Origin: a bacterium
GTDB taxonomy: Bacteria > Patescibacteriota > Saccharimonadia > Saccharimonadales > UBA4665
DNA: 46,871 bases
Direction of reading: 5' to 3'
Assembly: GCA_021799595.1 (NCBI GenBank)
Contig: JAJZAF010000007.1
Coordinates: 1 to 46,871, forward strand
How positions within the stretch are numbered: the stretch's first letter is position 1; every line of letters starts with the position of its first letter. Below the pieces are notes generated by a model. That model did not search any database, was not told the origin of the DNA, and saw nothing but the letters and a program-made list of their open reading frames with translations. Shown piece after piece: positions 5,195 to 39,037 of the stretch. The translations under genes were made by a program, and so were the position numbers.

Positions 5195-5201
5195 AAGACT
5201 A

Positions 5202-5229
5202 TTGTAATTGTAAAGTGCACCCGTATAGA
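5202..5229 (+). promoter_or_regulatory. promoter for ddl
   Basis: TTGTAA (5202-5207), a 16-bp spacer and TATAGA (5224-5229), leaving only 8 nt to the ATG at 5238. There is no ribosome site, so the transcript is probably leaderless. Confidence 0.5.
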
Positions 5230-5237
5230 CTAGTTAC

Positions 5238-6404
5238 ATGGAAACAGTTGCGGTTATCTTCGGCGGACGTAGTACCGAGCATGACGTCTCCATCATCACG
5301 GCTATTCGTAGCATCATAAAACCTCTGGAGCTGACCAAACACTTTCGGGTTGAGGCTGTCTATGTCAGTAAAGACGGTAGTTGGTACTGGGATGAAAAAC
5401 TGAAAGACATCACACTCTATACATCTGGGGATATTACTGGTTTTCTCAATAAACATCATACACTCAATGTTCAATTTGACGGTGGTCTGACTTTTTTTAA
5501 AACAAGCGGTATTACCGGTCGAAAAACTACCCAAAAAATAGATATTGTTTTTCCGAGTATGCATGGTACACACGGTGAAGACGGAGCATTAATGGGTGTT
5601 CTGGATATGGCGAATGTGCCGTACGTCGGTTGTGGTGTTCGTGCCTCGGCCATAGCTATGGACAAGGTCCTAGCCAAACAAGTAGTACAAGCAAATGGCC
5701 TCCCTGTCGTCCCATTTGTCTATTTTACAAAAGACCAAGTCGACACGGAGCCTCTGAAATGTCTGAAGATCATTACCGAGAAACTTCACTACCCATTATT
5801 TATTAAACCGGCTCATTTAGGCTCTAGTATCGGTATTAGTCATGCCAGTAATGACAAAGAACTTCAAAATGGTCTTGAAGTGGCTGTCCACTATGATGAT
5901 AAAGTTATTGTTGAAGAAGCGGTTCATAATCTTATTGAGGTGACGCTTCCTATTATGGGTAATAACGAACCAAAACCGGCTCTTTTAGAGCAGCCGCTAA
6001 CTTCTTCTGAAGACTTCTTTGATTTCGATACCAAATACATTGGCGGCAAAAAGGGAGGAAGTAAAAAAGGCGGAGTGAAAGGGGCACAAGGCTATAGTCA
6101 AATACCAGCTAAATTACCGAAGCAGTTAGAAAAACAGGCATTTGATCTTGGTCTGGCAGTATACCGAGCACTTGAGTGCAGCGGCATTGCCCGCATAGAC
6201 ATGCTGATTGACGAAAAAACTGGCGTAGTTTACTTCAATGAAGCCAATCCGCTGCCTGGTAGTCTCTATGCTCATAACTGGAATCGGGCTGGGGTGAGTA
6301 ATGTTGAATTAGTGAGCGAACTGATACGCTATGGCAAAGAACGTTTTGCTATTGAGCAGCAACTGAACACGACTTTTAAGACTAGCTTTCTTCAGCAATT
6401 TTAG
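5238..6404 (+). CDS. ddl: D-alanine-D-alanine ligase
   Basis: 388 residues, an ATP-grasp enzyme that joins two D-alanines for peptidoglycan. The N-terminal strand VAVIFGGRSTEHDVS is the Ddl hallmark. MHGTHGEDGALMGVLDM, the ATP-binding FIKPAHLGSSIGIS and the terminal metal site YFNEANPLPGSLY are all present. The omega loop has FFDFDTKYIGG followed by an unusual Lys/Gly-rich run (KKGGSKKGGVKG, about residues 272-283) not expected in standard enzymes, which makes the protein slightly long. Whether it makes D-Ala-D-Ala or D-Ala-D-Lac cannot be decided from these motifs. It sits directly after the MurF-like ligase that would use its product. Probable own promoter with a leaderless start. Confidence 0.95.
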   Translation: METVAVIFGGRSTEHDVSIITAIRSIIKPLELTKHFRVEAVYVSKDGSWYWDEKLKDITLYTSGDITGFLNKHHTLNVQFDGGLTFFKTSGITGRKTTQKIDIVFPSMHGTHGEDGALMGVLDMANVPYVGCGVRASAIAMDKVLAKQVVQANGLPVVPFVYFTKDQVDTEPLKCLKIITEKLHYPLFIKPAHLGSSIGISHASNDKELQNGLEVAVHYDDKVIVEEAVHNLIEVTLPIMGNNEPKPALLEQPLTSSEDFFDFDTKYIGGKKGGSKKGGVKGAQGYSQIPAKLPKQLEKQAFDLGLAVYRALECSGIARIDMLIDEKTGVVYFNEANPLPGSLYAHNWNRAGVSNVELVSELIRYGKERFAIEQQLNTTFKTSFLQQF

Positions 6405-6416
6405 CAGTCCTATTTA

Positions 6417-6438
6417 CCTCAGTTGCTGCCGACTGAGG
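6417..6438 (+). terminator. hairpin between ddl and guaA
   Basis: cctcagt (6417-6423) pairs perfectly with actgagg (6432-6438). There is no U-run. A second copy of actgagg lies at 6450-6456, ending one base before the guaA ATG, so the same left arm could instead pair over the guaA start. Confidence 0.4.
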
Positions 6439-6457
6439 CAATTTGCTAGACTGAGGT

Positions 6458-8350
6458 ATGGAACATCAGAAAGTGGCAATCCTTGATGCTGGCGGACAGT
6501 ATGTCGACCTGGTGCGCAAGGCTGTGGAGCGACAGGGTTTTAGAGCAGAAATATTACCGCTTAATACTCCACGACAGAAGCTTGAAGCCACCTATAAGGC
6601 TGTCATAATTTCAGGTAGTCCGGCCAGCTCACATGATCAGGCTGCACCGCAGCCGGATATGGATCTTTGGAATAGCCACTTGCCTATCCTCGGTATTTGC
6701 TATGGCATGCAGGCCATGGTCATCGCTTTTGGTGGGACAGTTATTAAAAATGCCATTCGAGAAGATGGACGGATTATGACAGAGGTCAATATGGCCCATC
6801 CATTATTTCAAGGATTGAGACGGCAATTCACGGCGCTCTTTACTCATGGAGACTTTGTTACGTCGCTACCACCAGATTTTGTTGTTCTCGGTTCGCATAC
6901 ATTACTTGACAATACGACAGTTTACTCGGCTATTGGCAAAGGGAATAAGCTGGGAGTGCAGTTTCATCCAGAGGTTTTTGACGATACACCAGGTGGCTAC
7001 CAACTATTCCATAATTTCCTGATTACTATTGCCGATCTGACACCGGATACGGCTTTCCATAAAGAGCGGCTTGCTCGTTTGATTAAGCAAAAACAACAGC
7101 AAATCAAGGAACAGGCAAACGAGCGTCCTGTTATAGCCTTTGTCAGCGGCGGTGTCGACTCGTCAGTAGCAGTGACATTAGCCACCAAAGTACTATCGCC
7201 AGATAAGCTACACGCCTTCTATATCGATAGTGGTTTTATGCGTGACGAAGATGGTTTGGTTGTTGAAATGTTGAAAGAAGCTAATTTGGTAGTAAAAAAG
7301 ATCGAAGCTGCCAAGGAATTTGAACAAGCCACGATTGAGTTAAAAGGAAAAACCTATGGACCGCTTAGTACGGTAACCGATCCTGAGCTGAAACGACAAA
7401 TTATTGGCAGAACTTTTATACAAATTCAGAATCGTCTAATTAAAGATTTAAAACTGACTGATGCGCTTTTATTACAAGGAACAAATGCAGCTGATCGGAT
7501 TGAGAGTGGCCACAGCAAAGGTGGCGTCCATACGATGACGATCAAGACTCATCATAACCAGGTACGTGAAGTGCAGGAGTTGAAACAGAGAGGTCGCTTG
7601 ATCGAACCGCTTGACGATCTCTTTAAGGATGAGATAAGAGAAATTGGCCGGCAGCTTGGCTTACCAGAAGAGCTTATTGAACGGCAGCCTTTTCCTGGCC
7701 CCGGCCTGGCGATTCGAATTATTTGCACCGAGAATCGTTCTTCATCAGTCCCGGCTGCCAATGTAAAGCCCATCATGGATTTTCTCAAGAATCACGGCTT
7801 TGAAACGTTGAGAGCTTGTCTTCTTCCAGTTAGAAGTGTTGGTGTTGGTGGCGATGAACGCTCGCATCTGTCTGTTATTGCCATTCAGCAACATAGTCTG
7901 AAGGCTGAACAACTAGCTGAACTGGGAACGGTCTTACCGGCTCATTTTCGAGGAGACATTAATCGAGTTATCTATGCGCTCGGGCTGAATGCAATAGATA
8001 GCTATACGCTTACGCCAACGCTCCTGAAAGAGGATGTACGGCGGCAGCTTCGTCAGGCTGATGCTATTGTCTTTGAGCTGATGCGCGAGTATCGTTTACT
8101 TGCAAAAATTGACCAATTTCCAGTGGTACTTTTGCCACTTTCGTTTAGTAAAGCGGGTGCCAGATCGATTGTGCTCAGACCAGTTCGCACCAGCAACTTT
8201 ATGACCGTGCAGGCAATGCTGCCTGGGCGTGATCTACCGCATGATTTCTTAAAAGAAGCAAACGAGCGTATTCTCCATAAGGTGTCTGGTATTTCTCAAG
8301 TTTTCCTCGACCTTACCAATAAACCGCCAGCTACTACAGAATGGGAATGA
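6458..8350 (+). CDS. guaA: GMP synthase (glutamine-hydrolysing), long form
   Basis: 630 residues. Converts XMP to GMP using glutamine and ATP. The class I amidotransferase domain has the nucleophile Cys81 in GICYGMQAM and the His in FHPEV. The ATP-pyrophosphatase loop is SGGVDSSVA (from residue 230), and the C-terminal dimerisation domain contains FPGPGLAIRI and ends in TTEWE. It is about 100 residues longer than the common bacterial enzyme (about 510-525). The extra length lies in the dimerisation region (LLPVRSVGVGGDERS, LTPTLLKEDV, LRQADAIVFELMRE, TSNFMTVQAMLPG), which resembles by memory the human-type enzyme with a duplicated dimerisation unit. Putative -10 TAGACT at 6447-6452 lies 5 nt from the ATG. 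Confidence 0.95.
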   Translation: MEHQKVAILDAGGQYVDLVRKAVERQGFRAEILPLNTPRQKLEATYKAVIISGSPASSHDQAAPQPDMDLWNSHLPILGICYGMQAMVIAFGGTVIKNAIREDGRIMTEVNMAHPLFQGLRRQFTALFTHGDFVTSLPPDFVVLGSHTLLDNTTVYSAIGKGNKLGVQFHPEVFDDTPGGYQLFHNFLITIADLTPDTAFHKERLARLIKQKQQQIKEQANERPVIAFVSGGVDSSVAVTLATKVLSPDKLHAFYIDSGFMRDEDGLVVEMLKEANLVVKKIEAAKEFEQATIELKGKTYGPLSTVTDPELKRQIIGRTFIQIQNRLIKDLKLTDALLLQGTNAADRIESGHSKGGVHTMTIKTHHNQVREVQELKQRGRLIEPLDDLFKDEIREIGRQLGLPEELIERQPFPGPGLAIRIICTENRSSSVPAANVKPIMDFLKNHGFETLRACLLPVRSVGVGGDERSHLSVIAIQQHSLKAEQLAELGTVLPAHFRGDINRVIYALGLNAIDSYTLTPTLLKEDVRRQLRQADAIVFELMREYRLLAKIDQFPVVLLPLSFSKAGARSIVLRPVRTSNFMTVQAMLPGRDLPHDFLKEANERILHKVSGISQVFLDLTNKPPATTEWE

Positions 8351-18208: not shown

Positions 18209-19399
18209 ATGCCACGTCAAAAATTGTCTGAGTATCGTGCTAAAGTTATCTTAAATCAGGCGTTGAACTTACACTACCAAGGTTGGCAGATTGATGGCAC
18301 TCGTGAATTGAAACCTCAACTGAAAGGTGCCAGTGAAACAAGTAACAATCTCGTTATAAAAGTAGACGAAGGTGTTAAGCGACGTTTCAAGCAAGGACTG
18401 GTACTTCTCGATATTATGCCGGAAGATCTAGAGAAAGGCATCCAGTCACTTCTCCGTAAAGGATACCGTTACCTTATTATTGAGCCAATGCTTGCTCACG
18501 ACCCCCATGAAGAACGTTACCTGAGTCTGAGTATGCATCGTGACGGTCTAATATGTCGTTACACTTCTAGTGGCGGGGTTGATATTGAAAGTCAAGCGAC
18601 GGATATCAAGAGCTTATTTATAAGACCAGGTCAGCAAGCACATGAGTTGGCTAAGGGAGCAGGTCTGACTCAGCAACAACTTGAAACGATGCGCAATCTT
18701 ATGGCTGATAACTATGTGGTCTTTTTGGAGCTCAATCCGTATGTAAGCCGCGAAGGCAACCTATATCTTTTAGACGCTGCCGTAGAAGTTGATGATGCTG
18801 CTCTATTTTTTGTCGATAATTGGAAGGCAGTCGATCTACGCTCGCATATTGGCCATGAACTTACCATTCAAGAACGACTAGTTCAAGAGTTAGATGCTTC
18901 GTCGCCGGCCTCGTTAAAGCTCAGTGTGCTTAACCCGAATGGCAGCATATTTCTGCTACTATCTGGTGGGGGCGCTAGCGTGGTGGTCGCTGACGAAATC
19001 CAAAATCAGGGGTTTGGTAAAGAGCTTGCCAACTACGGAGAATATAGCGGGAATCCGAACACTGAGGAAACCTATATCTACACTAAGGCAGTATTGCAGT
19101 TATTACTTCGCTCTCAAGCTAGTAAAAAAGTACTTTTTATTGGTGGTGCTGTGGCCAATTTTACCGATATTGCAAAAACCTTTGCCGGCGTCATGCAGGC
19201 TATAGAAGAAGTAGCAGACAAATTGCAGGCTCAAAAGGTCAAAATATTCGTGCGCCGTGGTGGCCCGCATCAGGAAAAAGGATTAGCTGCTATGAGAACA
19301 TTGCTCGCCCAGTATAATTTACTCGGAATGGTTCATGGCCCAAAGACACCTCTTACAACAGCGGTTGATGAAGCGCTTAAGGAAGCAATCTATGGATAA
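18209..19399 (+). CDS. aclB: ATP-citrate lyase, small (ATP-grasp/citrate-binding) subunit
   Basis: 396 residues, equivalent to the N-terminal third of human ACLY and to AclB of reverse-TCA bacteria. With the next gene it would convert citrate, CoA and ATP to acetyl-CoA and oxaloacetate. The N-terminal ATP-grasp part has FLELNPYVSREGNLYLLDAA, matching the TYLEINPLV type of ACLY. The citrate-binding domain has LNPNGSIFLLLSGGGASVVV, KELANYGEYSGNP, FIGGAVANFTDIAKTF and IFVRRGGPHQEKGL, all near-identical in spacing to ACLY by memory and more specific than succinyl-CoA synthetase beta. TATCAT lies 7 nt before the ATG with no ribosome site (leaderless). It overlaps the next gene by 8 nt. Confidence 0.9.
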   Translation: MPRQKLSEYRAKVILNQALNLHYQGWQIDGTRELKPQLKGASETSNNLVIKVDEGVKRRFKQGLVLLDIMPEDLEKGIQSLLRKGYRYLIIEPMLAHDPHEERYLSLSMHRDGLICRYTSSGGVDIESQATDIKSLFIRPGQQAHELAKGAGLTQQQLETMRNLMADNYVVFLELNPYVSREGNLYLLDAAVEVDDAALFFVDNWKAVDLRSHIGHELTIQERLVQELDASSPASLKLSVLNPNGSIFLLLSGGGASVVVADEIQNQGFGKELANYGEYSGNPNTEETYIYTKAVLQLLLRSQASKKVLFIGGAVANFTDIAKTFAGVMQAIEEVADKLQAQKVKIFVRRGGPHQEKGLAAMRTLLAQYNLLGMVHGPKTPLTTAVDEALKEAIYG

Positions 19400-21158
19400 T
19401 TTTCGTAAGATGCCCATCAGTGTCATTTGTCTTGGTTCACATCCGGGGATTATTCAATCAATGCTAGATTATCATTATTGTCTTGGGCAAGAAGATATAC
19501 CAATCATGGCTATCATTGGCAGCGGTCGCAAACAAGAACGGTACTTCTGGGGCCATAGTGAGATCGTATTGCCGGTATATCGAGAACTTTCTACCGTACC
19601 AAAAGAAATCAGGGATAGTGTAACTTGTTTATTGCACGTTCAATCTGCTCGCAGGGTACTGAGTGGTCTGACAGAGGCCTTTAAAACATTACCGAAGCTT
19701 ACGCTTGTGAATGTTTTTGCTGAGCAAGTACCTGAAGCCCACGCTATAACACTTGCTCAGCTGGCAAAGGAGCATAACATTACAATAGCTGGTCCAGCTT
19801 CAGTTGGCCTGCTGTTACCCGGCGTTCTTAAGCTGGGAGCTATTGGTGGTACCGAATATCCACAACTAGTAGCGGCTCGTATATTTGTACTAGGCGATAC
19901 AGCAGTCATTTCTACCTCAGGCGGTATGGTGAACGAGCTTATCCATATTGTGACGGGTAGTGGTTCAGGGGTATCATTTGCTATGGCTCTCGGGGGTGAC
20001 CGCAACCCGATTACCACACCGGCGGAAGCAATGCGCTTGGCGCAGACAGATAGCCAGACGAAACGGATAGTCTATTTTGGTGAACTTGGTGGCGATGATG
20101 AATATCGGATCGCTGAACTAATAAAAGAAGGAACCCTCACAAAACCAATCGTTGCATATATTGCTGGCAGCGTAGCTGAACTTTTTCCGGAGCCTCCGCA
20201 ATTCGGTCATGCCAAAGCCATGGCAGGTTCAGAAGCAGAGACTGCTGCTGCCAAAAAAACTGCACTTCGTGAGGCCGGAGCAACGGTCGTTGATGTTTTT
20301 ATGGATATAGTTAGTGCGCTCGGTGAGTCGTCACCGGCCACTGAGCCACAAGAGCATCGGCAGATTACAACTCGGCATAAACGTTTGCTTGTCAGCCGCA
20401 TTTCTGGCGAAGTGGAGGGTGATGTTCAGTTGCTTGGCCAGGATCTTTTAGGTGTAGTTAATGGGAACACCGTTGCTGGCCTCTATCTGTCAATGCTGCT
20501 TGGTCAGCCTGTCAAAGCTTCAAAATTAATTGAATTTATGGATTATACCCTCAGATTATTGATTGATCATGGTCCGTATGTTGCTGGTGCAGTCAACACG
20601 GCTATTGCCGCCAGAGCGGGTAAAGATCTCGCTTCCAGTCTATCAGCTGGCCTTCTCACTATCGGTCCTCGCTTCGGTGGTGCTATTAATAGCGCAGCGG
20701 GCGTGTGGCTGGAGGGAGTGCAATCTCAGTCTTCTGCCAAAGACTTCGTCGTGAGTTTTCGATCTAATGGCGGCATTATCCCCGGTATTGGACACAAAAA
20801 GTATCGGATTGATGTACCTGATCCTCGTGTGGTTAAGCTAATAAGTACCTTCAGTGGCAACAGTAATGATGATCGTTTTCTCAGTTTTGCTCGCAGCGTT
20901 GAATCTGTGACGACAGCCAAGAAAGGGAACCTTATCTTAAATGTCGATGGTACGGTTGCTGCTATAATGCTTGATCTCCTTGAATCCGAACTATACTACA
21001 CTCAGGAACGACTGCAGGAGCTTATTGATATTGAATTCTTTAATGCCTTGTTTATCGCTAGCCGTTCGGTTGGTTTAATGGCGCACTATCTTGATCAACG
21101 TCGTCACGACGAGGGATTATTAAGGCTGAGCGATGAGGACGTCAGTTACATTCCTTAG
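19392..21158 (+). CDS. aclA: ATP-citrate lyase, large (CoA-ligase plus citrate synthase-like) subunit
   Basis: 588 residues from the ATG at 19392 (AAGGA 8 nt upstream); a longer frame start would overlap the small subunit far more. The CoA-binding/CoA-ligase part has YFWGHSEIVLPVYREL, the IAGPASVGLLLPGVLKLGAI region, STSGGMVNELIHIV and FGELGGDDEYRI. The phospho-histidine is His273 in PPQFGHAKAMAG. The C-terminal citrate synthase-like domain has DHGPYVAGAVNTAIAARAGK, TIGPRFGGAINSAAG, IIPGIGHKKY, NLILNVDGTVAAIML and GLMAHYLDQRR, all ACLY hallmarks. The subunit is complete, with no frameshift or missing catalytic residue visible. glmM follows 20 nt later. Confidence 0.92.
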   Translation: MDNFRKMPISVICLGSHPGIIQSMLDYHYCLGQEDIPIMAIIGSGRKQERYFWGHSEIVLPVYRELSTVPKEIRDSVTCLLHVQSARRVLSGLTEAFKTLPKLTLVNVFAEQVPEAHAITLAQLAKEHNITIAGPASVGLLLPGVLKLGAIGGTEYPQLVAARIFVLGDTAVISTSGGMVNELIHIVTGSGSGVSFAMALGGDRNPITTPAEAMRLAQTDSQTKRIVYFGELGGDDEYRIAELIKEGTLTKPIVAYIAGSVAELFPEPPQFGHAKAMAGSEAETAAAKKTALREAGATVVDVFMDIVSALGESSPATEPQEHRQITTRHKRLLVSRISGEVEGDVQLLGQDLLGVVNGNTVAGLYLSMLLGQPVKASKLIEFMDYTLRLLIDHGPYVAGAVNTAIAARAGKDLASSLSAGLLTIGPRFGGAINSAAGVWLEGVQSQSSAKDFVVSFRSNGGIIPGIGHKKYRIDVPDPRVVKLISTFSGNSNDDRFLSFARSVESVTTAKKGNLILNVDGTVAAIMLDLLESELYYTQERLQELIDIEFFNALFIASRSVGLMAHYLDQRRHDEGLLRLSDEDVSYIP

Positions 21159-21178: not shown

Positions 21179-22498
21179 ATGAGCAGAGAATTCTTTGGTA
21201 CTGATGGCGTACGTGGTTTGGCAGGGGAGTATCCGCTTGACGAAGAGGGTGCTCGTCACATCGGCGCTGCAGTTGGTCAATACTTCGCCACCTCTGGGCA
21301 AGGAGTAGTTATTGGTCATGATCCTCGTGAGTCATCTCCTAAACTTGTTCGTGCACTCACAGATGGGTTGAACTGTAGCGGAGTAATAGTAACAAGAGTT
21401 GGTGTTATTCCAACGCCAGGATTAGCCTATCTGACACGTCAGCATAATGAATTTAAAGCTGGGCTGATGGTGACGGCCAGCCATAACTCGTACGAGTATA
21501 ACGGTATCAAGGTATTTGGACCTTCTGGAGATAAATTGCCTGATGAAAGTGAGTATATACTTAACAAGTTAATTAAAGAACGAGTAACGGGGAAGAGCAG
21601 TGGTAGTGTGATAGATAAACCGGATATGGTGCGCGAATACGAAGACTTTCTGGTGGACAATGGTCATGGACTTAACCTCCATAGCATGGCGGTTGCCTTT
21701 GACAGTGCGAATGGTGCTGCCAGTGGTCTTGGACAGCGCGTCTTTGAACGCCTCGGGGCTCATGTGACATCATTGTTTGATCACTGCGACGGGAAGAATA
21801 TAAATGATGGTTGCGGTGCAACCGATACGCGTGTTCTCGCTGAGCGGGTGGTCAAAGACCAACTAGACCTTGGTATTGCTGTTGACGGAGACGCTGATCG
21901 GCTCATGATGGTAGATGGTCACGGTCACGTTATTGATGGTGATCAGTTATTGTACATCTTGGCAGTGTCTGGTCACCACAACGGTGTCGTGGCAACAGTT
22001 ATGTCAAATGTCGGTCTTGAGCAAGCCTTAAAACGGCATAATATTAGACTCTTGCGCACTGCTGTCGGAGATCGTTACGTACTTGATGGTCTTAAAAAAA
22101 GCGGTCTGACATTGGGCGGTGAAAAGTCAGGCCACATTATATTACCCGAACTACTTGCTACTGGTGATGCCTTACTAGCAGCGGTGGTACTATTAACGGC
22201 AATATATAATTCCAAGCGTGATCTGGCTGATTGGTGTCAAGAAGTACAATTAGTGCCACAGGCGCTTGTGAACATTTCACTTCCGAACAAAACGGCACTA
22301 GATAATCCGCACGTAAAAAACTTTATTAAAAAACAACATGAGGCAATAGACGGTAAAGGCAGAGTATTAATACGTCCGTCAGGAACTGAACCTCTAGTGC
22401 GGGTAATGGTCGAAGCCCAGCAAGCGGATAAACTGGTTCTTGACATTGCCGAAGGCCTGGAACGACAGCTCATGCGAACAAACAAGGAAGGCAAATAA
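21179..22498 (+). CDS. glmM: phosphoglucosamine mutase
   Basis: 439 residues. Converts glucosamine-6-P to glucosamine-1-P for UDP-GlcNAc and peptidoglycan. Start MSREFFGTDGVRGLAGEYP is typical; phospho-serine in MVTASHNSYEYNGIKVFG, metal-binding AVDGDADRLMMVD, specificity loop GGEKSGHII and the phosphate-binding RPSGTEPLVRVMVEA are all present. The stop overlaps the start of the acetyltransferase by one base (TAATG), and it follows the ATP-citrate lyase genes closely, so the four genes look like one operon. Confidence 0.94.
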   Translation: MSREFFGTDGVRGLAGEYPLDEEGARHIGAAVGQYFATSGQGVVIGHDPRESSPKLVRALTDGLNCSGVIVTRVGVIPTPGLAYLTRQHNEFKAGLMVTASHNSYEYNGIKVFGPSGDKLPDESEYILNKLIKERVTGKSSGSVIDKPDMVREYEDFLVDNGHGLNLHSMAVAFDSANGAASGLGQRVFERLGAHVTSLFDHCDGKNINDGCGATDTRVLAERVVKDQLDLGIAVDGDADRLMMVDGHGHVIDGDQLLYILAVSGHHNGVVATVMSNVGLEQALKRHNIRLLRTAVGDRYVLDGLKKSGLTLGGEKSGHIILPELLATGDALLAAVVLLTAIYNSKRDLADWCQEVQLVPQALVNISLPNKTALDNPHVKNFIKKQHEAIDGKGRVLIRPSGTEPLVRVMVEAQQADKLVLDIAEGLERQLMRTNKEGK

Positions 22499-23109
22499 TG
22501 CTTCCCTTCCCGACCAATTTTGTCGATCAGCCTGAGAGTATTAAGGCAGATAGTCTTTCGAATGATGGCCTGCAGTCACTTAAAGAACTTGAGATAAAAG
22601 GTTATGAAGTTCGCGTTGGTTTAAGTGATGACTATTCGGACACCATTAGCCGTGTCTGCCAGCAAGCAGCCATATTAGAATACTGCCCAAATGACATAGC
22701 CAAACGCTTTCATGATCATACCGTAACAGCTGTTTGGCTTACTGGTGGACGGGTGGTCTATTTACTTGTGCCAAGTGGTTCGAAGGATCCGAACCAGCTT
22801 GCTGGCTATGGCTGGATTGGCCCGAAAAAGAGTGTATATGTACCAGAGGGAGCCGTCACTTTTGGCGTTCGTATTAGTGAAGATCATCAGGGGAAAGGTT
22901 TAGCAGCACCTTTTTCCAAAGTGATGTTGGCCGCCGCTGCTAGCTATAGCACGGGTATAGTTTGGCTGGAGACTTGGCAGAGTAATGTCAGTGCTGTTCA
23001 TGTCTATCATAAAATTGGGTTTGTCGATGTTACTCAAAAAGCCGACAAACGTCTAACACGCACAGGTAGCATAGTTGATGACGTTCGTATCTATATGGTG
23101 AGGAAATAG
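22498..23109 (+). CDS. GNAT-family N-acetyltransferase
   Basis: 203 residues. The acetyl-CoA pyrophosphate loop is SEDHQGKGLAAPF in a strand-loop-helix context (GAVTFGVRI before it), and LETWQSNVSAVHVYHKIGF is the usual second GNAT motif. Acceptor unknown: protein N-termini, antibiotics or sugars are all possible. Coupling to glmM and the ATP-citrate lyase genes raises acetylation of an amino sugar as a hypothesis, but GlmU-type acetylation uses a different (left-handed helix) fold. Residues 1-45 show no known motif. Confidence 0.82.
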   Translation: MLPFPTNFVDQPESIKADSLSNDGLQSLKELEIKGYEVRVGLSDDYSDTISRVCQQAAILEYCPNDIAKRFHDHTVTAVWLTGGRVVYLLVPSGSKDPNQLAGYGWIGPKKSVYVPEGAVTFGVRISEDHQGKGLAAPFSKVMLAAAASYSTGIVWLETWQSNVSAVHVYHKIGFVDVTQKADKRLTRTGSIVDDVRIYMVRK

Positions 23110-26445: not shown

Positions 26446-28098
26446 ATGACTAGCATAGATGCCCAGCGTATTCATGTCACAAAATTACGATGGCCGACGA
26501 CAGTAGTTCGCCGTATCATTGCAAAGCGAGCGTTTCGTGGCGGGCTTCTCTGGGGGATAATACTAGGATTATATATGCTCTCGAAAGCAGATTCATATAT
26601 AAAGTACTATCCAACGGTAGCCGATCGAATGAGAGTGGCAGTGACACTTGGTTCTAACGTTGGCGTTGAGGCGCTTCTGGGTGTTGCGCATCGAATTGAG
26701 ACCGTTGGCGGCTATGCAACCTGGAATTTTCTGTGTCTGGTGACCGCTGTCGGTGCTATTTGGGCCATATTATTGACAACAAAGAATTTGCGAGGCGAGG
26801 AAGATAACGGTCGATGGGAGCTATTCTTGGCTGGTCAAACCACAGCTCGTCGAGCAACTATGAACGCCTGTTGGGGTCTTATGGCCGGTCTCGTGACGTT
26901 CTTTGTCTGTATGGCATTATCTGCCAGTGTCATTGCACATATACACGGTGCACACATGACGATGGCAGCAAGTTTGTTCTTTGCTGTCGCATTAACCTGT
27001 GGTGCGGCTGAGTTCATGGCAGTAGCAGCACTGGCTAGTCAGCTGATGCCGGTACGTGCTCGTGCTTCGGAGTTGGCAGCAGCTATTTTCGGTGTTTTTT
27101 ACTTGATGCGCCTGGTTGCGGACACTACTTCTGCCCACTGGCTCTTAGATATTAGCCCGCTTGGATGGATAGAACGACTTGCTCCACTTTATGGCTCAGA
27201 CCCGATTTGGCTCATTCCAATAAGTCTCTTTATTGCAGTCTGTGCGGGCGTGGCTATCATTTTAAGCGGTCGGCGGGATCTTGGTAGTGCATATATTTCA
27301 GATAAAGATAGTGTCAAACCGCGTACCAGGCTATTGAATTCTCCACTTGGCGTTAGCTTCCGATTAACACGAGTGACGTCATTAATTTGGCTAGTCGTCT
27401 TTGCGGCTACTGCCTTTATCTACGGGCTGTTGGCTAAAGGAGCAGTTCAAAGTTTTAATGAGACTGCCAAGATTCAAAAAACTCTTAATCAATTGGCAGG
27501 CACTTCTCACGTAGGTCTGACCCTAGCTTTCTTGGGCATAACTTTCTTTTTTATCATGATTTTGACAATGTTCTATGCAGTGACAGCCATTGGGCACATC
27601 CGTCAGGATGAAGCAGAGGGCTACTTGGACAACTTTCTGGTTAGACCGGTTGGTCGTTTACAGTGGCTGGTCGCTCGTATTAGTCTCATACTTATCGTTA
27701 TAGTTTTGGGAGGTTTAATCAGTGGTATTGGAGCGTGGGCAGGTGAAGCACTCCAAGCTGGCGGGGTATCTTTACATACGCTGCTGCTTGCCGGCATCAA
27801 CACCACAGTTCCCGCTTTTCTTATTATGTGCACCGGAGTTTTTGCTTTTGGTTGTCTGCCACGTTTAACGAATTTTCTTTCATATGGTTTGGTGGCTTGG
27901 TCATTCCTGATAACCATGCTTGCTACGGGACTGAATATTAATCATTGGCTGTTAGATACCTCGATACTGCATCAAATTACTTTTGCTCCCGCCACTAGTC
28001 CAAATTGGCGTACTGATTGGATAATGTGTGTCGTTGGTCTTATGCTTTTTGTTATTGGCGCAGTTGTCTTCAATCGACGAGACATAGAGACGGAGTAG
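26446..28098 (+). CDS. ABC-2 type exporter permease
   Basis: 550 residues with about 12 hydrophobic helices in two halves (residues about 30-270 and 305-545), separated by a polar stretch with SGRRDLGSAYISDKD. The length and two-half layout resemble exporters of the tetronasin-resistance type, where one polypeptide carries both membrane halves. Substrate unknown. It is cotranscribed with the ATPase at 25545. Confidence 0.85.
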   Translation: MTSIDAQRIHVTKLRWPTTVVRRIIAKRAFRGGLLWGIILGLYMLSKADSYIKYYPTVADRMRVAVTLGSNVGVEALLGVAHRIETVGGYATWNFLCLVTAVGAIWAILLTTKNLRGEEDNGRWELFLAGQTTARRATMNACWGLMAGLVTFFVCMALSASVIAHIHGAHMTMAASLFFAVALTCGAAEFMAVAALASQLMPVRARASELAAAIFGVFYLMRLVADTTSAHWLLDISPLGWIERLAPLYGSDPIWLIPISLFIAVCAGVAIILSGRRDLGSAYISDKDSVKPRTRLLNSPLGVSFRLTRVTSLIWLVVFAATAFIYGLLAKGAVQSFNETAKIQKTLNQLAGTSHVGLTLAFLGITFFFIMILTMFYAVTAIGHIRQDEAEGYLDNFLVRPVGRLQWLVARISLILIVIVLGGLISGIGAWAGEALQAGGVSLHTLLLAGINTTVPAFLIMCTGVFAFGCLPRLTNFLSYGLVAWSFLITMLATGLNINHWLLDTSILHQITFAPATSPNWRTDWIMCVVGLMLFVIGAVVFNRRDIETE

Positions 28099-28107
28099 CG
28101 TAAATTT

Positions 28108-28566
28108 TTAATAAACTAAGGTATGTTTTGTAGCTAGTTTACCGAAGCGTGGAGCTCTTGTTACTCTGGATAATAGATTAAGGTTTTTTTGCCCACTTTC
28201 CGTTAGTTGTATTGCTTTATGCTCCATGCGCGTTATACTGCCGTGAGCTAAGCTACGAGTTGTGTATGCAACCACCTTCGACAAAAGACTTGGTGCGACG
28301 GCTATAAATTGAACCGGTTGAAAATTATTTTCTTCTCGTTGCACAAATCCATACGACCAGCTTGTCAATGGCTCTAAAACTCGATTCCAGTATAGCTGTT
28401 CAACTTGCTTATAGCCCGTAATTAATTGACTAATTACTACTCTGGCGTCATTAAAAAATTCCATGACAGCATCTTCTTCTACCCTACAACTTTCAGAAGC
28501 ACTGGCCACGCCATCCCAGACATTATTAAACAGGTCTGTATAGCGGGCACATTCTTGCATTGACAT
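28108..28566 (-). CDS. hypothetical protein
   Basis: 152 residues, cytoplasmic-looking, mixed alpha pattern with no membrane helix or known motif. The N-terminal half is acidic with Cys at two positions (QECARYT and ESCRVEED). The C-terminal part is basic (GSITRMEHKAIQLTESGQKN, RVTRAPRFGK), giving a winged-helix-like look near TESGQKN, typical of MarR/PadR-type wings, but no complete DNA-binding domain can be traced. It converges on the ABC permease. Confidence 0.55.
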   Translation of the reverse strand: MSMQECARYTDLFNNVWDGVASASESCRVEEDAVMEFFNDARVVISQLITGYKQVEQLYWNRVLEPLTSWSYGFVQREENNFQPVQFIAVAPSLLSKVVAYTTRSLAHGSITRMEHKAIQLTESGQKNLNLLSRVTRAPRFGKLATKHTLVY

Positions 28567-29377
28567 AAAAACAATATTTACCTAATACGTACAATATTAT
28601 GGTCCCGAATTAACTCTATGCATGCCTGCCTAGCCGATACAACGCCACAGCTTTAGCAGTGGATAACTATGCAAATATACACTTAATAAGTGTGTATTTT
28701 TGTCACCGTTTGGACTCCTCGCAAAACTCCAACTCAGAGCTTTTCGGACTAATTTCTATTTGCTTCCAAAAAAGCTAATAGCAGTATAGCATTAAAATTT
28801 GGAGCGGTCTAATTTTGTTGTCAAGTTTCTACGAAAAAGCGAACAATTGTAGTAATAAAAAAACACTATTATAACATTGTAACAGATATAGAATGTGCAT
28901 TATATAATAAGTTTTTCTCCATATGCTCTATAAGCGCCAAAACACCCTGAAAGCACCACACTATGAATGCTATTACTTGATGCTCATGGGTTTTCGGGTA
29001 TATGGTAATTTTTAGTAGCTCTAATCCTGCCGCCACAGTTCCACGAGAGTAAGCTCGTGGGAAGTTTAATAAATAAGACGAGCAAGGCTGTGCCAAAAAG
29101 CAGCTGTTTATCGTGAGGCCCTAATGCGTCTATTGATAGTGCACATATTGAAGAATTGTGTGTGGACAGGAGAAATCCGTGCAATCTATTGGAGATTCAT
29201 CTCCCCGTGCGCTTGATGCAAAAATTAAGTGACATCGTTACTGATTCTCATAGGGGGCTTATGGAGCTTATAGCTTATATTGAGTCATGGAGAAGTTACA
29301 AGAGTTGCGCCTCGCATTTTTGACTGTACTATAAAGCCCCCACCAGGTAGCAATGGTTTATCTGAGCGATGTTTAAG
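28567..29377. other. 810-bp AT-rich intergenic region without a credible gene
   Basis: No reading frame has a ribosome site and family-like composition. It holds a terminator-like hairpin (acactt/aagtgt, about 28680-28695, followed by gtgtattttt), a hairpin ccacgag/ctcgtgg (29041-29060) and a small hairpin ggaga/tctcc (29190-29203). On the minus strand at 28984-29184 a frame with a hydrophobic patch (LLFGTALLVLFIKLP) may be the remains of a membrane protein. Confidence 0.5.
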
Positions 29378-30178
29378 CTAACTTTTGTTATCTATCTCTT
29401 GCTCAACCGATTTTTTAAAACCGCGTTTTACAATAAAAGAGGTACTTGACAGCAATGTTGCATTGGGTAAGTAAACTATTTCACCGCTTTCTAAGCGCAA
29501 GCGGGTATGGGTAAGTCCCATATCTATAACCGTACCAATGTATTCACCTCCGAGTGCGCCTGATTTTAGCGTAATATGTTCACCAATGGTAAACGGTCTA
29601 GATAATATGAGTATGAAGCTGGCAAAGAAGTTAGCGAGAGCTTGCTGGGCGGCCACACCGATGATAATGCCTAAAACGGCACTACCAAGTAGTAAATGGC
29701 CAACGGAGATACCAAGCAGTTCCAGTGTAGAGACAAGGATAATAATGTAACCAAAGACTCGCAAGATAAATTGGATAGAAGCTGCCCGTCCGGTGCCGAG
29801 CCGATGAGCGGCAATAAGTTTACGAATGGTATCAGTGAAAACATTCAAAAAAGAGATTGAGAAGATGACAAAGATAATAATGCCAATAAGAGCAACGATT
29901 TCATTGTTAATATGATGGCTTACTAATTTTCCATGAGTATGGCGTAAAACAACACCTATCAAGAATAGAATGGCGAACGGAATGAGTTTGCTGTTTGCGC
30001 TTCGCCAAATCTGTTTGCTGATGATCTTTCGTCGAACTGCCAAGATATATGTATGGTAAGCATTTATGAAGATCAGCGCAAGTCCTTGATGGAGCACTGA
30101 CAAATTAGTCGTTGCTACAATTATGAAAGAAAATATCAAAAACGTATTAAAGTATATTTTGCTTTTGAAGTGTGTCAC
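29378..30178 (-). CDS. mscS: mechanosensitive ion channel of the MscS family
   Basis: 266 residues, GTG start. Opens under membrane tension to release solutes during osmotic downshock. Four to five hydrophobic helices in residues 10-190, with the pore-lining segment LGSAVLGIIIGVAAQQALAN near residue 165-185 and the following beta-domain (FTIGEHITLKSGALGGEYIG, then GLTHTRLRLESGEIVYLPNA) diagnostic of MscS. The carboxy-terminal alpha/beta cage domain is cut short compared with E. coli MscS (286 residues); the protein ends after a basic tail. Confidence 0.9.
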   Translation of the reverse strand: MTHFKSKIYFNTFLIFSFIIVATTNLSVLHQGLALIFINAYHTYILAVRRKIISKQIWRSANSKLIPFAILFLIGVVLRHTHGKLVSHHINNEIVALIGIIIFVIFSISFLNVFTDTIRKLIAAHRLGTGRAASIQFILRVFGYIIILVSTLELLGISVGHLLLGSAVLGIIIGVAAQQALANFFASFILILSRPFTIGEHITLKSGALGGEYIGTVIDMGLTHTRLRLESGEIVYLPNATLLSSTSFIVKRGFKKSVEQEIDNKS

Positions 30179-30310
30179 GTTTAGACGGAACGATTATTTC
30201 CATCTCATAACTGGTACTTTATTATCTCACTCGTGGACAGTATCCAAAGAAGTATAGAGGGCGCATCATTTAGTGACTTTAAACATGATTGGCTTGCTCA
30301 ATATTATGGT

Positions 30311-31141
30311 TTACGAAAACACAAATGAGCGAATCATATCAAGAATGGGTTTTTGAAAACTTGTTTCATTCCAATCATTCGAGCTGAGTATAAGGGGTGT
30401 CAAGTTAGCCGTACAGGTAGTATTACCGCATTGAGTAAAAGTGATAGTAATGAGCGGATCGATATTTTGTAAATCGCTCGCAGGAATTACTTGATCTTTC
30501 TGGTAGCCATAATTACCGGTTACGTAGATGCCGTTTAAGCTACCTTTGACAGTAGCATTAGAGTATTGAACAAAACTAATATAGGTCTGAGCACTTTGAC
30601 TTGATGAAGGTTGAGCGTAACTAACTAGTTGAGAATTGAGTACTGCAAGGTCTGTGCCGGACGTAAACCCACTTGGTAACTGACCTTGTGGTTCAACGGT
30701 CATGGTTATTTCGCCGATTATCTTTTTATTGGCGGCGTCAGTTAATTGCATGGGTGACGACGTAGCTGTCATGGGGCCAGTGCCGTTATCAAAGATACTC
30801 CAGCTGGCTGGATAACTAAATGTCAAACCATAATTTTGAGCCGTATAACTTCTTGTGCCAGTACTCGTTGAATTATTGACTGGTGCCGAGGAGGAGGTAT
30901 GATAGACAACTTTAAGTTGTTTTGCAGGTGATGATTTATGAAGTAGTTTACTCCCAGCTAAGACAGCCAAGACAATAACGACGATCACAACAGCAATACC
31001 GAGCACAAAACGTCCTATAAAGCGCGAACGGCTGTGCTTATCTGCCGGTGGTAACACAGAGTTCGTTAACGGATTAAAAGATGGAGTAGATTGATCGGCT
31101 GGAGAGTTAACTTGATGAAATGGCGGGGTTTGATTATCCAT
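30311..31141 (-). CDS. single-pass membrane protein with PsbP-like outer domain
   Basis: 276 residues. A polar Pro/Ser-rich N-terminus (about 45 residues), one membrane helix (FVLGIAVVIVVIVLAVLAG, about residues 47-66), a Ser/Thr linker, then a domain opening with YTAQNYGLTFSYPASWSIFD, a pattern common to PsbP/MOG1-like domains. Two Cys near the C-terminus (QCGNTTC) could form a disulfide outside the cell. Organisation is like the protein at 1517. Function unknown. Divergent from the acyltransferase. Confidence 0.7.
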   Translation of the reverse strand: MDNQTPPFHQVNSPADQSTPSFNPLTNSVLPPADKHSRSRFIGRFVLGIAVVIVVIVLAVLAGSKLLHKSSPAKQLKVVYHTSSSAPVNNSTSTGTRSYTAQNYGLTFSYPASWSIFDNGTGPMTATSSPMQLTDAANKKIIGEITMTVEPQGQLPSGFTSGTDLAVLNSQLVSYAQPSSSQSAQTYISFVQYSNATVKGSLNGIYVTGNYGYQKDQVIPASDLQNIDPLITITFTQCGNTTCTANLTPLILSSNDWNETSFQKPILDMIRSFVFS

Positions 31142-31248
31142 ATCTTTTTCTATGGGGCATTACATCTATCATCCTTTAGTATAGTCTATCGAGTTGAGAA
31201 TAAGCTGACAGAGACTTTTTTTACATTACTAAGTAACATTTCTAATGC

Positions 31249-31278
31249 TTGTTTTCGCCTATATGTCTTTTGTATAGT
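31249..31278 (+). promoter_or_regulatory. promoter of the acyltransferase gene
   Basis: TTGTTT (31249-31254), an 18-bp spacer and TATAGT (31273-31278), 7 nt before the ATG at 31286. This decides the start and predicts a leaderless mRNA. Confidence 0.6.
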
Positions 31279-31285
31279 TTCTACG

Positions 31286-32113
31286 ATGCATGAGTCGTAT
31301 CAGGGAGGTGGCAAGTTAGAGACTGACCTTATCGTAGAAGGTAACTTATCTAAGCGGTATGTTATCTGGCCGCTTGTGCAGCTATGTCGTCTTGTGGTTC
31401 ATTCTGATACGCATTTTGAAGAAGGAGCCATTGAAGAGCTCCATAATCACCGGGATAGTGGTGGAGCGCTATTGATTGCCATGACTCATTTCCGGCATAT
31501 GGAGCCGATTGTTATGGCTCAACTAGCGGGCACGCATGAGCCGCTTCGTCATATTTGGTATACGACAGGGATTACTGGGAAAGAAAGTCTTTTAAAGAAA
31601 CCATTTGGTATTGGTTGGATAATGAGGAGAACCGGTATTGTCCCAGTGGTACGGTCTATTGATCATCCCAATGAAACACCGACTGAAAGAGCTGAACGTA
31701 TAGAAAAAAACCAACGGGCGCAGGCTATAGGTGGACGCTTCCTGGCCAGGGGTCACAATTGGCTAATATACCCCGAAGGCGGCACTAAAAGAGTTATTAA
31801 AGAAAATGGTAAAATAGTACGCCAGAAACGAGAGGACCTGCACACACTCTTACCTATTCAGAGAGGGGTTGGTTACATTTTAGATAGCATGACAACTAAA
31901 GAGCAACGAAGAGTACGACTACTTGGTATCTCGGTTTATTATGGGAAGCATGTTAATCTCTTCCCGACTGTGTATATCAGTCGCCCAGCAGCGCCCAATG
32001 GAGAAACAATTGATGACTATCGTTTACAGGTTGAAGATTTATTGCAGCATGGTTTGAGTGAGGCAATCAGACTGCGTCATCAACGACGTTTTATGCGTAA
32101 CGCATCCTCGTAG
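31286..32113 (+). CDS. PlsC-type 1-acyl-glycerol-phosphate acyltransferase-like protein
   Basis: 275 residues from the ATG at 31286; the frame is open 65 codons further upstream but that part overlaps the divergent gene and the promoter. The catalytic H-x4-E is THFRHMEP (His68, Glu73), replacing the usual H-x4-D. A FGIGWIMRRTGIVPVVR block and the LIYPEGGTKR motif (matching the EGTRS block) support the glycerolipid acyltransferase family, which places acyl groups on phospholipid precursors at the membrane. The N-terminus carries no clear membrane helix. Reduced genomes may use such enzymes to remodel scavenged lipids. Confidence 0.8.
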   Translation: MHESYQGGGKLETDLIVEGNLSKRYVIWPLVQLCRLVVHSDTHFEEGAIEELHNHRDSGGALLIAMTHFRHMEPIVMAQLAGTHEPLRHIWYTTGITGKESLLKKPFGIGWIMRRTGIVPVVRSIDHPNETPTERAERIEKNQRAQAIGGRFLARGHNWLIYPEGGTKRVIKENGKIVRQKREDLHTLLPIQRGVGYILDSMTTKEQRRVRLLGISVYYGKHVNLFPTVYISRPAAPNGETIDDYRLQVEDLLQHGLSEAIRLRHQRRFMRNASS

Positions 32114-32386
32114 CTACTGCTTTTAGGTATACCGAATATACGACGAAACTGGACGAATACTATAGAATATTAGCGGGTTAGGGTCATACTAATTGTTCGT
32201 AAAAGGACCAGATTTTTCAACAATATAAAAGTGGAAATTATAAAATTGTAGCCATCGGTTTTTAAAAGAGATTGAGTATATGGTGCGCTACAACCACGCT
32301 TTTCTCTAGCATAAATAGTAGTTGAACAACTGATATTCTTTCTTAGTCTAGACAGGAACGGCCAAAAAGAGTTTGGCCTTTGAAAA

Positions 32387-32404
32387 GCCTCTTAGGAGAG
32401 AGGC
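32387..32404 (-). terminator. terminator over the 3' end of the gene at 32392
   Basis: On the minus strand gcctct (32404-32399) pairs with agaggc (32392-32387), with TTTTC following. The TAA stop codon lies at the loop-stem edge. A second hairpin, ggccaaa/tttggcc (32360-32378), lies just beyond. Confidence 0.55.
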
Positions 32405-33033
32405 AATATCATGCCTGGCCTTAACGTTACGACAAGCTGCGACATGGCTTGATCAAGCACTCTCCTCATGTTTTCTGCTATGCCTGGAGTATGACGACCA
32501 AAGCTGGCAACCTTGCTGTCAGGATAATATGTGTTCCACGTAAGGCAACTACCTAGTTGGCCAGTAAGCCTTTCTAGCGTTCTGCCAATACTTCGTCTCT
32601 CGGCGAATAGCTGTTTATCATTGAAGACCAGAGTTAACATCTGACCCTCCCACAAATCGTATAACCGGACCCCTGTTGCTCTTATTGGTCCAATTTCCTG
32701 TCCGAAAGTTGGCACTCTTTCATGTATAGTCTCACGTACTAATTCATAATCTAATCTACCAAGTGAGGACAAATTATTTTTAATGTCTGCTGGTCGCGCA
32801 ATACGTGTCTGAAGTTTACAACCGGCCTGGGAATCTTCAGGAGAATATAAATCTATAGAAACTTGATCTGACATTGCCAATTGAGTGAGCTTTTTAAAAG
32901 CGGCGCGTGTACCATCAATGTCACTTTGGCTTACTTCCGGACAAGTCATTGATGGTATTTCAATCAGCCGAATCGCAGCAAATTGCCCGGAAACCGTTGC
33001 TAAACTACGATGAGCTTCAGTGCTTATTGCCAT
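32392..33033 (-). CDS. hypothetical protein
   Basis: 213 residues, no membrane segment. Predicted alternating strands and helices with conserved-looking blocks FAAIRLIEIPSM, DQVSIDLYSPEDSQAG and GQMLTLVFNDKQLFAERRSI. A mention of 2H phosphoesterases came to mind (AHRSLAT early, GRHTPG late), but the second HxT motif does not fit and the order is poor. AAGG directly precedes the ATG and AAGGA lies 12 nt further upstream. A terminator overlaps its end. Function unknown. Confidence 0.65.
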   Translation of the reverse strand: MAISTEAHRSLATVSGQFAAIRLIEIPSMTCPEVSQSDIDGTRAAFKKLTQLAMSDQVSIDLYSPEDSQAGCKLQTRIARPADIKNNLSSLGRLDYELVRETIHERVPTFGQEIGPIRATGVRLYDLWEGQMLTLVFNDKQLFAERRSIGRTLERLTGQLGSCLTWNTYYPDSKVASFGRHTPGIAENMRRVLDQAMSQLVVTLRPGMILPLS

Positions 33034-33095
33034 CCTTTGACATTCCTTAACACTTAAATAATCATATCATATGAATAATAGGCGACAACATATTA

Positions 33096-33124
33096 TTGTT
33101 AATATTTTATAAATATTCTATAAT
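33096..33124 (+). promoter_or_regulatory. consensus promoter of the gene at 33131
   Basis: TTGTTA (33096-33101), an exact 17-bp spacer and TATAAT (33119-33124), only 6 nt before the ATG. The strongest example of a leaderless arrangement in the window. Confidence 0.65.
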
Positions 33125-33130
33125 ATTCTT

Positions 33131-34282
33131 ATGAATACACACGGGACCGTCTTTTCCTACTATGAGGGAGGAGGTTTAACGTTCCCATACCTAACTGTTA
33201 CGCAATCAAGTAGCGGCTCACCGTTTGAAGAAAGTGGGCCTATCTTTAGACATACTGAAAAAATAGAATCATCTTATGTTGATAGTGCAATGGACGAAAT
33301 AGCACAGTCTTTAAAGGTAGTTCGGTCGGGTGATTCGTATTTTGAAATAGCAACCGCCAATAATGATGCAATAAATCAAGACGCTATACTCCACATCTCG
33401 ACTTACAGCTCAGCTATTTCCACTAACCATGGCAATGGTTATGAGTTTGCAGCTCAAGCAGTCCGCTATCCAAATCATAAGCATGTATACGTCGCCTCGT
33501 TTGGCAATGGTGCTACAGCGCCTCTATTGCCAGAAGACGCAGCCTATGTGCGTACAACTGGTCGTTTCACTAAAGAAATAGATGGGAAAACTGTCGCTAT
33601 TCAATCGCTTCAAAATTTACAAGCAGCTCTCAGTCAGGAAGGGCTGACAGTTACAAGGTTTAGTACCGACTCAGCCGGTGGACACTATGCCCGTGGACTA
33701 TCACTTGCTATGGAAAGCGGCCAACTTACTCATGGTTTCTTTAGTGAGACTCCGGGTTTCGTTGACCTTACAATTGGGCAAATGTTGATGGGGATGCTTA
33801 TTAAAGAAAATGTACAAAACGCGAAACAAAATCGAGCTCTTTCGTCTGACCCTGAAAAAATGGATAAAGAAAAAGCTAGACGTTTCACACAAGCATTTAT
33901 CAATTATGCTGATCTACCCAATCGTCATGAGCTTACCCAAGCTAGGGTAGCAACCGTAAAGACAATACAAAGTTTGGTAACTAGCCTTCAAACATTCCGC
34001 CGAGGTCCGAATAAAGACCAAAATCCTTTTGTTGATGACACTGATGCCATGATTGCCCAACATCCAGAAGCTCGTCTTACCTACGGTGTTGCTGAGCATG
34101 ACCCCCTCTATATGAGTCCTGATAGGAGCCGTGAAGCCGTTCGGTCGTTTATGGCATCAATAGCCGTCAGGCAGACCCCTGTCAAAGTAGCATTAATTCC
34201 TGGAATGACCCACGCTTATAATACATATTTCCCCAGTCTCTATCATGCGGTGAAACGAGACGCACTAGAGTTAAGAAAATAA
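33131..34282 (+). CDS. alpha/beta hydrolase-like protein of unknown substrate
   Basis: 383 residues. A nucleophile-elbow-like STDSAGGHYARGL lies near residue 183, a candidate acid in GVAEHDPLYMSPD near residue 322 and a candidate His in LIPGMTHAYNTYF near residue 359, in the right order for a Ser-Asp-His triad. The canonical first Gly of GxSxG is replaced by Thr (TDSAG). The first 80 residues (NTHGTVFSYYEGGGLTFPYL) and a basic insert (ARRFTQAFINYADLPNR) match nothing I know. No signal peptide is evident. Confidence 0.65.
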   Translation: MNTHGTVFSYYEGGGLTFPYLTVTQSSSGSPFEESGPIFRHTEKIESSYVDSAMDEIAQSLKVVRSGDSYFEIATANNDAINQDAILHISTYSSAISTNHGNGYEFAAQAVRYPNHKHVYVASFGNGATAPLLPEDAAYVRTTGRFTKEIDGKTVAIQSLQNLQAALSQEGLTVTRFSTDSAGGHYARGLSLAMESGQLTHGFFSETPGFVDLTIGQMLMGMLIKENVQNAKQNRALSSDPEKMDKEKARRFTQAFINYADLPNRHELTQARVATVKTIQSLVTSLQTFRRGPNKDQNPFVDDTDAMIAQHPEARLTYGVAEHDPLYMSPDRSREAVRSFMASIAVRQTPVKVALIPGMTHAYNTYFPSLYHAVKRDALELRK

Positions 34283-34383
34283 AAAAGTTATAACAACAGG
34301 CCATTGATATAGAAAGGAAGCCTGAACTATATAATTTTTGTGATATCCAGTTTTTCACCAGAACTTTTTGATAATAAATATAA

Positions 34384-35163
34384 ATGACAAAAAAGCAGAA
34401 GGTAGATAGCCCAGGCCAAGACATTAGCTTTTATGACGATCACCCGTACGATCAGTTTTGGATTGGTAGGGACTACGAGCATGAATCAGAAACGCTAGCC
34501 CTTAAGAAACTCATCGGCGATAACCATTATCAGGTAGCATTAGATTACGGAGGGGGGTATGGGCGACTAGCAACTATTTTAATGGATTATGCTGACGAAG
34601 TTGTTTTGGCAGATCCATCAATGGAATTACTAAATCTGGCGAAGGTAAAACTAAAAGGCAAAAGTGGCATACGCACAATCCATCTCAAAGAAGATGCTAA
34701 TATACCCCTCTCAAGTAACACAGTAGACCTTGTTGTTATGGTTAGGGTCTCTCATCACCTTGCAAAGCCAGAAAAGAATTTTAAAGAGATTTATAGAGTA
34801 CTCAAACCGAACGGCGTTGCGATTATTGAAATAGCGAATAGTGCCCATATGCTTAACCGGATAAAATATCTTACGAGATTTAAGTTAGTTCCTCGGCAAT
34901 CAATCAAAGTAGGAAATGCTTCAAATGGAATTTTAGAAGATACTCCATTTTTTAATCACAATGTACGTACCATCCAACACATGTTAAGAAAGTGTAACTT
35001 CACAATCATAAGAAAGTTGTCCGTGTCAAACTTACGTAATCAATACTTAAAAAAGCACTTTCGTTTAGAACAGATGGTCAAGGTTGAACAACGTTTGCAG
35101 GGAACTTTGTCTTATATAAATTTTGGCCCTAGTATGTTTATAATGGTCAAAAAGCCTGAGTGA
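34384..35163 (+). CDS. class I SAM-dependent methyltransferase
   Basis: 259 residues. Motif I ALDYGGGYGRLATIL (near residue 45), an acidic residue ending strand 2 (EVVLADPS), motif LPLSSNTVDLVVMVRVSHHL in place of the common FDVV block, and RVLKPNGVAIIEIAN after it give the Methyltransf_11 layout. Substrate unknown. It is followed 7 nt later by the converging sensor kinase. The DNA before its ATG is very AT-rich, with GATAAT ending 8 nt upstream. Confidence 0.85.
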   Translation: MTKKQKVDSPGQDISFYDDHPYDQFWIGRDYEHESETLALKKLIGDNHYQVALDYGGGYGRLATILMDYADEVVLADPSMELLNLAKVKLKGKSGIRTIHLKEDANIPLSSNTVDLVVMVRVSHHLAKPEKNFKEIYRVLKPNGVAIIEIANSAHMLNRIKYLTRFKLVPRQSIKVGNASNGILEDTPFFNHNVRTIQHMLRKCNFTIIRKLSVSNLRNQYLKKHFRLEQMVKVEQRLQGTLSYINFGPSMFIMVKKPE

Positions 35164-35170
35164 CCAGCCT

Positions 35171-36851: not shown

Positions 36852-36920
36852 CGGCTTTATTATAGACTATAGTTTTAGATAGAAATTTAGAGAGTTATTA
36901 AAAGCAAATAGTATTTTAGT

Positions 36921-38937: not shown

Positions 38938-39037
38938 AAAAAAATGAATCCTTTATTTAAGTAAGTAATGAATTAAGTGTTTACAATGAACTTCGAGTCA
39001 ACATAATTCAACTTACGCAGGATTCATCAGAAACAAC
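38938..39037 (-). promoter_or_regulatory. helicase 5' leader with a complementary pair enclosing the ribosome site
   Basis: On the minus strand the ribosome site AAAGGA sits in aggattcat (38952-38944), 11 nt before the ATG. An exactly complementary atgaatcct occurs at 39027-39019, near the 5' end of the predicted transcript. Pairing gives a 9-bp stem with a 66-nt loop that hides the ribosome site. Confidence 0.55.

Follow-up and report, generated by a model that had tools for sequence, protein, structure and literature searches.

The locus described here raises the question of why a tiny, probably host-dependent Saccharibacterium should carry genes that read as ATP-citrate lyase (ACL), which is a marker enzyme of the reverse TCA cycle. 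The genes lie in a stretch of 46,871 nucleotides, referred to below as the window; its right part (28000–46871) shows a drop in GC content from about 0.45 to about 0.40. The genome comprises 903,352 bases in 32 contigs, is 99.35% complete and contains a single copy of ACL. The nearest named ACL loci are from Saccharibacteria, which bears out the initial annotation of the window in taking the genome to be CPR-like. The papers found offer no explanation for the origin of acetyl-CoA in symbiotic CPR bacteria that lack pyruvate dehydrogenase (PDH) and PFOR. In our view, it is reasonably probable that the pair is a working ACL which turns external citrate into acetyl-CoA, mainly for the N-acetylation of amino sugars. 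The features on which the argument is built are the following.

18209..19399, + strand: ATP-citrate lyase small subunit (ATP-grasp and citrate-binding domain), 396 residues; assigned from Pfam, solved-structure matches and AlphaFold/Foldseek
19392..21158, + strand: ATP-citrate lyase large subunit, 588 residues from the likely start; assigned from Pfam and solved-structure matches
20208..20210, + strand: phospho-histidine codon, His273 in the 588-residue numbering, corresponding to human ACLY His760 by pairwise alignment
21179..22498, + strand: glmM, phosphoglucosamine mutase, 20 bp downstream of acl; TIGR01455 443.6 bits against a cut-off of 447.55
22498..23109, + strand: GNAT-fold acetyltransferase, directly after glmM; PF00583 above its cut-off, AlphaFold model with pLDDT 92 and a GNAT fold

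Both subunits are encoded by intact reading frames on the + strand, in agreement with the initial annotation. The mechanical reading frame of the large subunit starts at 19335 and has 607 residues. The ATG at 19392, which gives 588 residues and an overlap of 8 bp with the small-subunit gene, is the likelier start because the close relative L046 has an equal length and overlap. In the small subunit the citrate-binding domain is recognized by PF16114 (Citrate_bind, 7.6e-62), while the ATP-grasp domain scores 78.6 bits with PF24948, slightly below the 83-bit cut-off, but with a clear fold match. The large subunit consists of a succinyl-CoA-synthetase-alpha-like domain fused to a citryl-CoA lyase domain of the citrate-synthase fold; the Pfam matches are Ligase_CoA and Citrate_synt, the latter being the citrate synthase-like domain recognized earlier. 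The top solved structures are Methanothrix ACL for the small subunit (7e-64) and human ACLY for the large subunit (2e-101), and both subunits match ACL structures far better than those of citryl-CoA synthetase or succinyl-CoA synthetase. The AlphaFold model of the small subunit (pLDDT 91.6) has human and Methanothrix ACL as its leading Foldseek matches (1.5e-40), and the leading structural matches are citrate-bound ACLs.

Human ACLY residues His760, His900, His975, Asp1026 and Glu599 have identical partners in the pair on pairwise alignment, so that the earlier designation of His273 as the catalytic histidine was correct. In an alignment of ten large subunits, the columns of the phospho-histidine, the lyase histidine and the aspartate show no variation. 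The human citrate-binding motif GG-x-x-ANFT and its arginines are kept in the aligned stretch of the small subunit. In the small subunit as a whole, Lys51, Asn176, Asp189, ANFT 316–319 and Arg349/Arg350 are invariant among 30 CPR relatives. Identity as a succinyl-CoA synthetase was rejected on the NCBIfam sucC and sucD models (50.9 against 375.55 bits and 118.8 against 336 bits, respectively). Separate citryl-CoA enzymes were rejected because the NCBIfam citryl-CoA lyase model scores far below its cut-off and because the lyase, a protein of its own in that family, is here a fused domain. These two families, or a loss of active-site residues, were the objections that the initial annotation had foreseen; the models fall well short and the residues are in place. 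Judged by its sequence, the pair is almost certainly an intact two-subunit ACL and very probably an active one.

The window enzyme has the same domain order, fused lyase, catalytic residues and citrate-binding motif as the ACLs of Methanothrix (PDB entry 6hxi) and Chlorobium limicola (PDB entry 6hxj) and the single-chain human ACLY, but is only about 30–33% identical to these in the small-subunit structure alignment. The phylogeny of both subunits, which had been proposed as a check, places it in a deep clade separate from archaeal, human and reverse-TCA ACLs in each tree, the Chlorobium ACL being absent from both. In the large-subunit tree 44 CPR rows form a clade (support 100) on a long stem of about 1.1 changes per site, which lies apart from the ACLs of archaea, human, Caldisericota, Aquificota and Campylobacterota. 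In the small-subunit tree, a branch with support 100/99 sets the corresponding CPR group apart from the remaining rows. Beyond the Saccharibacteria, the further relatives are titled Levy-, Woese-, Roizman-, Magasanik-, Kaiser-, Uhr- and Parcubacteria. Most CPR ACLs belong to one deep clade that spans Saccharibacteria, Microgenomates and Parcubacteria, which is a new finding. Three ACLs from the same phylum (L039, L040 and L041) fall outside this clade and group with the archaeal and eukaryotic side, which indicates that CPR ACLs are of more than one origin; the genome of L041 (G039) also has aconitase and PFOR. As to whether other members of the lineage carry the enzyme, which could not be told from the window, we found ACL in 36 of 393 genomes of the class (about 9% of those sampled) and 23 of 153 genera, as well as in several CPR groups. 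In two loci the large subunit is read as two open reading frames, with the break between the ligase and lyase domains (L070:7962–9773) or near the N-terminus (L036:7716–9478); each may be a true split or a frameshift.

The presence of ACL in CPR bacteria is not itself new. A two-subunit enzyme was reported in 2019 in the gracilibacterium 'Detritibacteria gulfii', where it was described as archaeal-like and rarely detected in CPR, and external citrate was proposed as its substrate (PMC6851277). That genome is described as encoding two putative citrate transporters; the window enzyme, by contrast, falls within the CPR clade, and the search for CitMHS in its genome was negative. The same enzyme in the same class appears in a 2025 report as aclAB enriched in Saccharimonadia MAGs (PMC12577380); the entry itself is a listing without phylogeny, neighbour analysis or role.

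To describe the metabolic setting, eight ACL-bearing clade genomes (G000, G149, G209, G278, G049, G370, G009 and G295) were searched one family at a time, each family giving matches in control genomes. None of the eight, the window genome included, has a match to PDH E2, PFOR, phosphotransacetylase or aconitase, or a citrate-synthase-domain match beyond the ACL gene itself. Given these absences, ACL is, among the families searched, the only recognizable source of acetyl-CoA found in the window genome. We note that ACL-lacking Saccharibacteria likewise have neither PDH nor PFOR, and that phosphotransacetylase is present in only two of them, so that the absences do not separate the two groups and the order includes other members that manage without these enzymes. 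Among the eight genomes, AMP-binding proteins were seen in the window genome (one) and in G370 (beside ACL). At the same place as the G370 match, locus L062 has an acetate–CoA ligase above the family cut-off (5042–6784), 26 bp upstream of ACL. The sole AMP-binding protein of the window genome (L148:4202–6847) is a fusion in which an AMP-binding acyl ligase is joined to an acyl carrier-like domain and to a PlsC-like acyltransferase; it is probably used for scavenged fatty acids. An acetate–CoA ligase was rejected as a second source in this genome, since this protein reads by eye as a fatty-acid ligase fusion. The mevalonate pathway was discarded as an acetyl-CoA sink because none of the 29 genomes searched has HMG-CoA synthase.

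As no other enzyme of the citrate cycle was found, the citrate most likely comes from outside the cell, and to this extent the suggestion in the initial annotation that the organism may live on external citrate has indirect support. The accompanying genome search, also suggested there, was negative for aconitase, for citrate synthase beyond the ACL domain and for CitMHS. The last of these is the one citrate-transporter family tested; among ACL-bearing genomes it was found in G370 only. With regard to the acetylation of amino sugars, bifunctional GlmU gave no match at the family cut-off in any genome searched. In the window genome no GlmU acetyltransferase half was seen, the matches covering the nucleotidyltransferase half only, and a literature search on GlmU in Saccharibacteria returned nothing.

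The genes next to ACL bear directly on the use of the acetyl-CoA. In the window genome, aclB, aclA, glmM and the GNAT gene form an apparent operon and would be transcribed together, and the order acl–glmM–GNAT is repeated in L046, L047 and L180. A fold search with the GNAT protein gave matches to generic GNATs alone, SpeG and PaiA among them, and assignment of a substrate by this route was given up. GNAT homologues adjoin ACL in Saccharibacteria and Kaiserbacteria, with GNATs preceding acl in one Saccharibacterial group and in Kaiser- and Parcubacteria. The gene glmS directly follows acl in L048–L051 and lies one gene further away in L068; in five Levybacterial loci murB is either the adjacent gene or the one after it. 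Of 47 CPR-clade loci, 14 have a same-strand run with glmS, glmM/PGM or murB, 16 have one with a GNAT and 26 have one with either; counted per gene, the amino-sugar and GNAT families make up 30 of 164 genes in acl operons compared with 8 of 470 elsewhere. These 47-locus statistics are biased, as the families were picked after the neighbours had been viewed, and the counts overstate the number of independent events, as many of the loci are related.

Before the last genome search a prediction was fixed, namely that such a gene would be an immediate neighbour in 30% or more of the new ACL loci. In this strict form the prediction failed, with an immediate neighbour in one of nine new loci (L180). 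Such a gene is present within two genes in two of the nine (L180 and L188) and in the same-strand run in four (L180, L184, L188 and L193), that of L184 being a weak phosphoglucomutase match. For comparison, 20 of 621 same-strand runs anchored on unrelated genes hold one, a background that is somewhat low because runs of flanking genes end at the locus edges. The looser out-of-sample counts exceed this background. The recurrence of ACL genes beside amino-sugar and peptidoglycan genes (glmM, glmS and murB) and GNATs is, like the absences in the eight genomes, a new observation.

On the basis of this gene linkage and of absences tested singly, we consider the most likely role of the enzyme, including the uptake of citrate and the use of the acetyl-CoA, to be as follows. 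Citrate would be taken from the host or the surroundings and cleaved, together with ATP and CoA, to acetyl-CoA, oxaloacetate, ADP and phosphate by way of the phospho-histidine and enzyme-bound citryl-CoA. ACL would act outside any reverse TCA cycle and would be the main or only source of acetyl-CoA in the cell. The acetyl groups would go to N-acetylation, above all in the synthesis of amino sugars (UDP-GlcNAc and peptidoglycan precursors), and to GNAT acetyltransferases. The failure of the strict neighbour prediction, the bias and relatedness in the 47-locus counts, the similar absences in ACL-lacking Saccharibacteria, and the lack of a GlmU acetyltransferase half and of CitMHS in the window genome count against this role. 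If it is correct, the organism would depend on its host through citrate and the acetylation of wall amino sugars, a concrete and testable metabolic link, and ACL marker genes in CPR metagenomes would not signal autotrophy.

A broader use of citrate, in which the host metabolite provides both carbon and energy, seems to us unlikely. Acetyl-CoA would then be converted to acetate, with ATP gained through phosphotransacetylase and acetate kinase, and oxaloacetate would pass to aspartate, malate or pyruvate. Several loci would suit such a scheme: in Kaiserbacteria a phosphotransacetylase lies beside ACL on the opposite strand (L079:5785–6741 by Pfam and L083:5766–6746 by clustering), and an archaeal-type PEP carboxylase lies near ACL in L064 (168–1691, from family models) and, by clustering or by eye, in L074 (2671–4209), L098 (2147–3715) and L193 (7991–9499), the last of which also has an aspartate-aminotransferase-like gene. 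The gracilibacterium mentioned above was likewise proposed to live on external citrate (PMC6851277). However, phosphotransacetylase and PFOR are missing from all eight ACL-bearing clade genomes and CitMHS from that of the window, where the immediate neighbours are instead glmM and the GNAT gene. That part of the initial annotation which saw citrate as a general food is thus less well supported than the narrower use of its acetyl group.

The long stem of the CPR clade and the slightly sub-threshold ATP-grasp score could also be expected of a paralogous acyl-CoA synthetase/lyase whose substrate is some other tricarboxylic or hydroxy acid. We regard this as improbable, since the stretch aligned to GG-x-x-ANFT and its arginines are conserved, all of the lyase residues tested are kept and the closest structures have citrate bound. 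Carbon fixation by the reverse TCA cycle, as in Chlorobium or Aquificota, would account for a complete ACL, the marker enzyme of that cycle, but we give it almost no credence. The required aconitase and 2-oxoacid:ferredoxin oxidoreductases are missing, which contradicts it; there is no citrate synthase other than the ACL domain in the genome, which differs from those of reverse-TCA bearers of ACL in lacking any such context, and the ACLs of Aquificota and Campylobacterota fall outside the CPR clade.

Turning from the favoured role of ACL in acetyl-group supply to other CPR bacteria, we observed a second type of citrate-cleaving system. In Hydrogenobacter the same overall reaction is divided between citryl-CoA synthetase (PDB entry 6hxq) and citryl-CoA lyase (PDB entry 6hxp), in contrast to the window enzyme with its lyase fused to the CoA-ligase domain. 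Sets of the Hydrogenobacter type, in which citryl-CoA lyase and the citryl-CoA synthetase subunits are encoded separately, occur in L042–L045 and L199–L205, repeatedly near glmS, GNATs and YvcK; those of L200 are separate genes with the two Hydrogenobacter enzymes as their best solved matches. No paper on citryl-CoA enzymes in CPR was found. Seven citryl-CoA loci were fetched after the prediction, which was worded for ACL loci and is extended here to these; four of them (L199, L200, L202 and L204) have glmS in the same-strand run. It is immediately upstream of the citryl-CoA genes in L200 and L204, as also in L045 from the earlier set, and a GlmU-like hexapeptide protein is upstream of them in L042. 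We tentatively raise the possibility, which we do not favour, that both types of enzyme, ACL and citryl-CoA synthetase/lyase, were retained across CPR as dedicated suppliers of acetyl-CoA for UDP-GlcNAc and peptidoglycan precursors, with host citrate a requirement for wall building and the operon GNAT taking the place of the GlmU acetyltransferase in lineages without GlmU. Two reports link YvcK/GlmR of B. subtilis with the activity of GlmS and with peptidoglycan synthesis (PMC7525490, PMC6171935). Across the whole fetched set, five loci encode the UDP-GlcNAc-binding YvcK, always within about 3 kb of the ACL or citryl-CoA genes.
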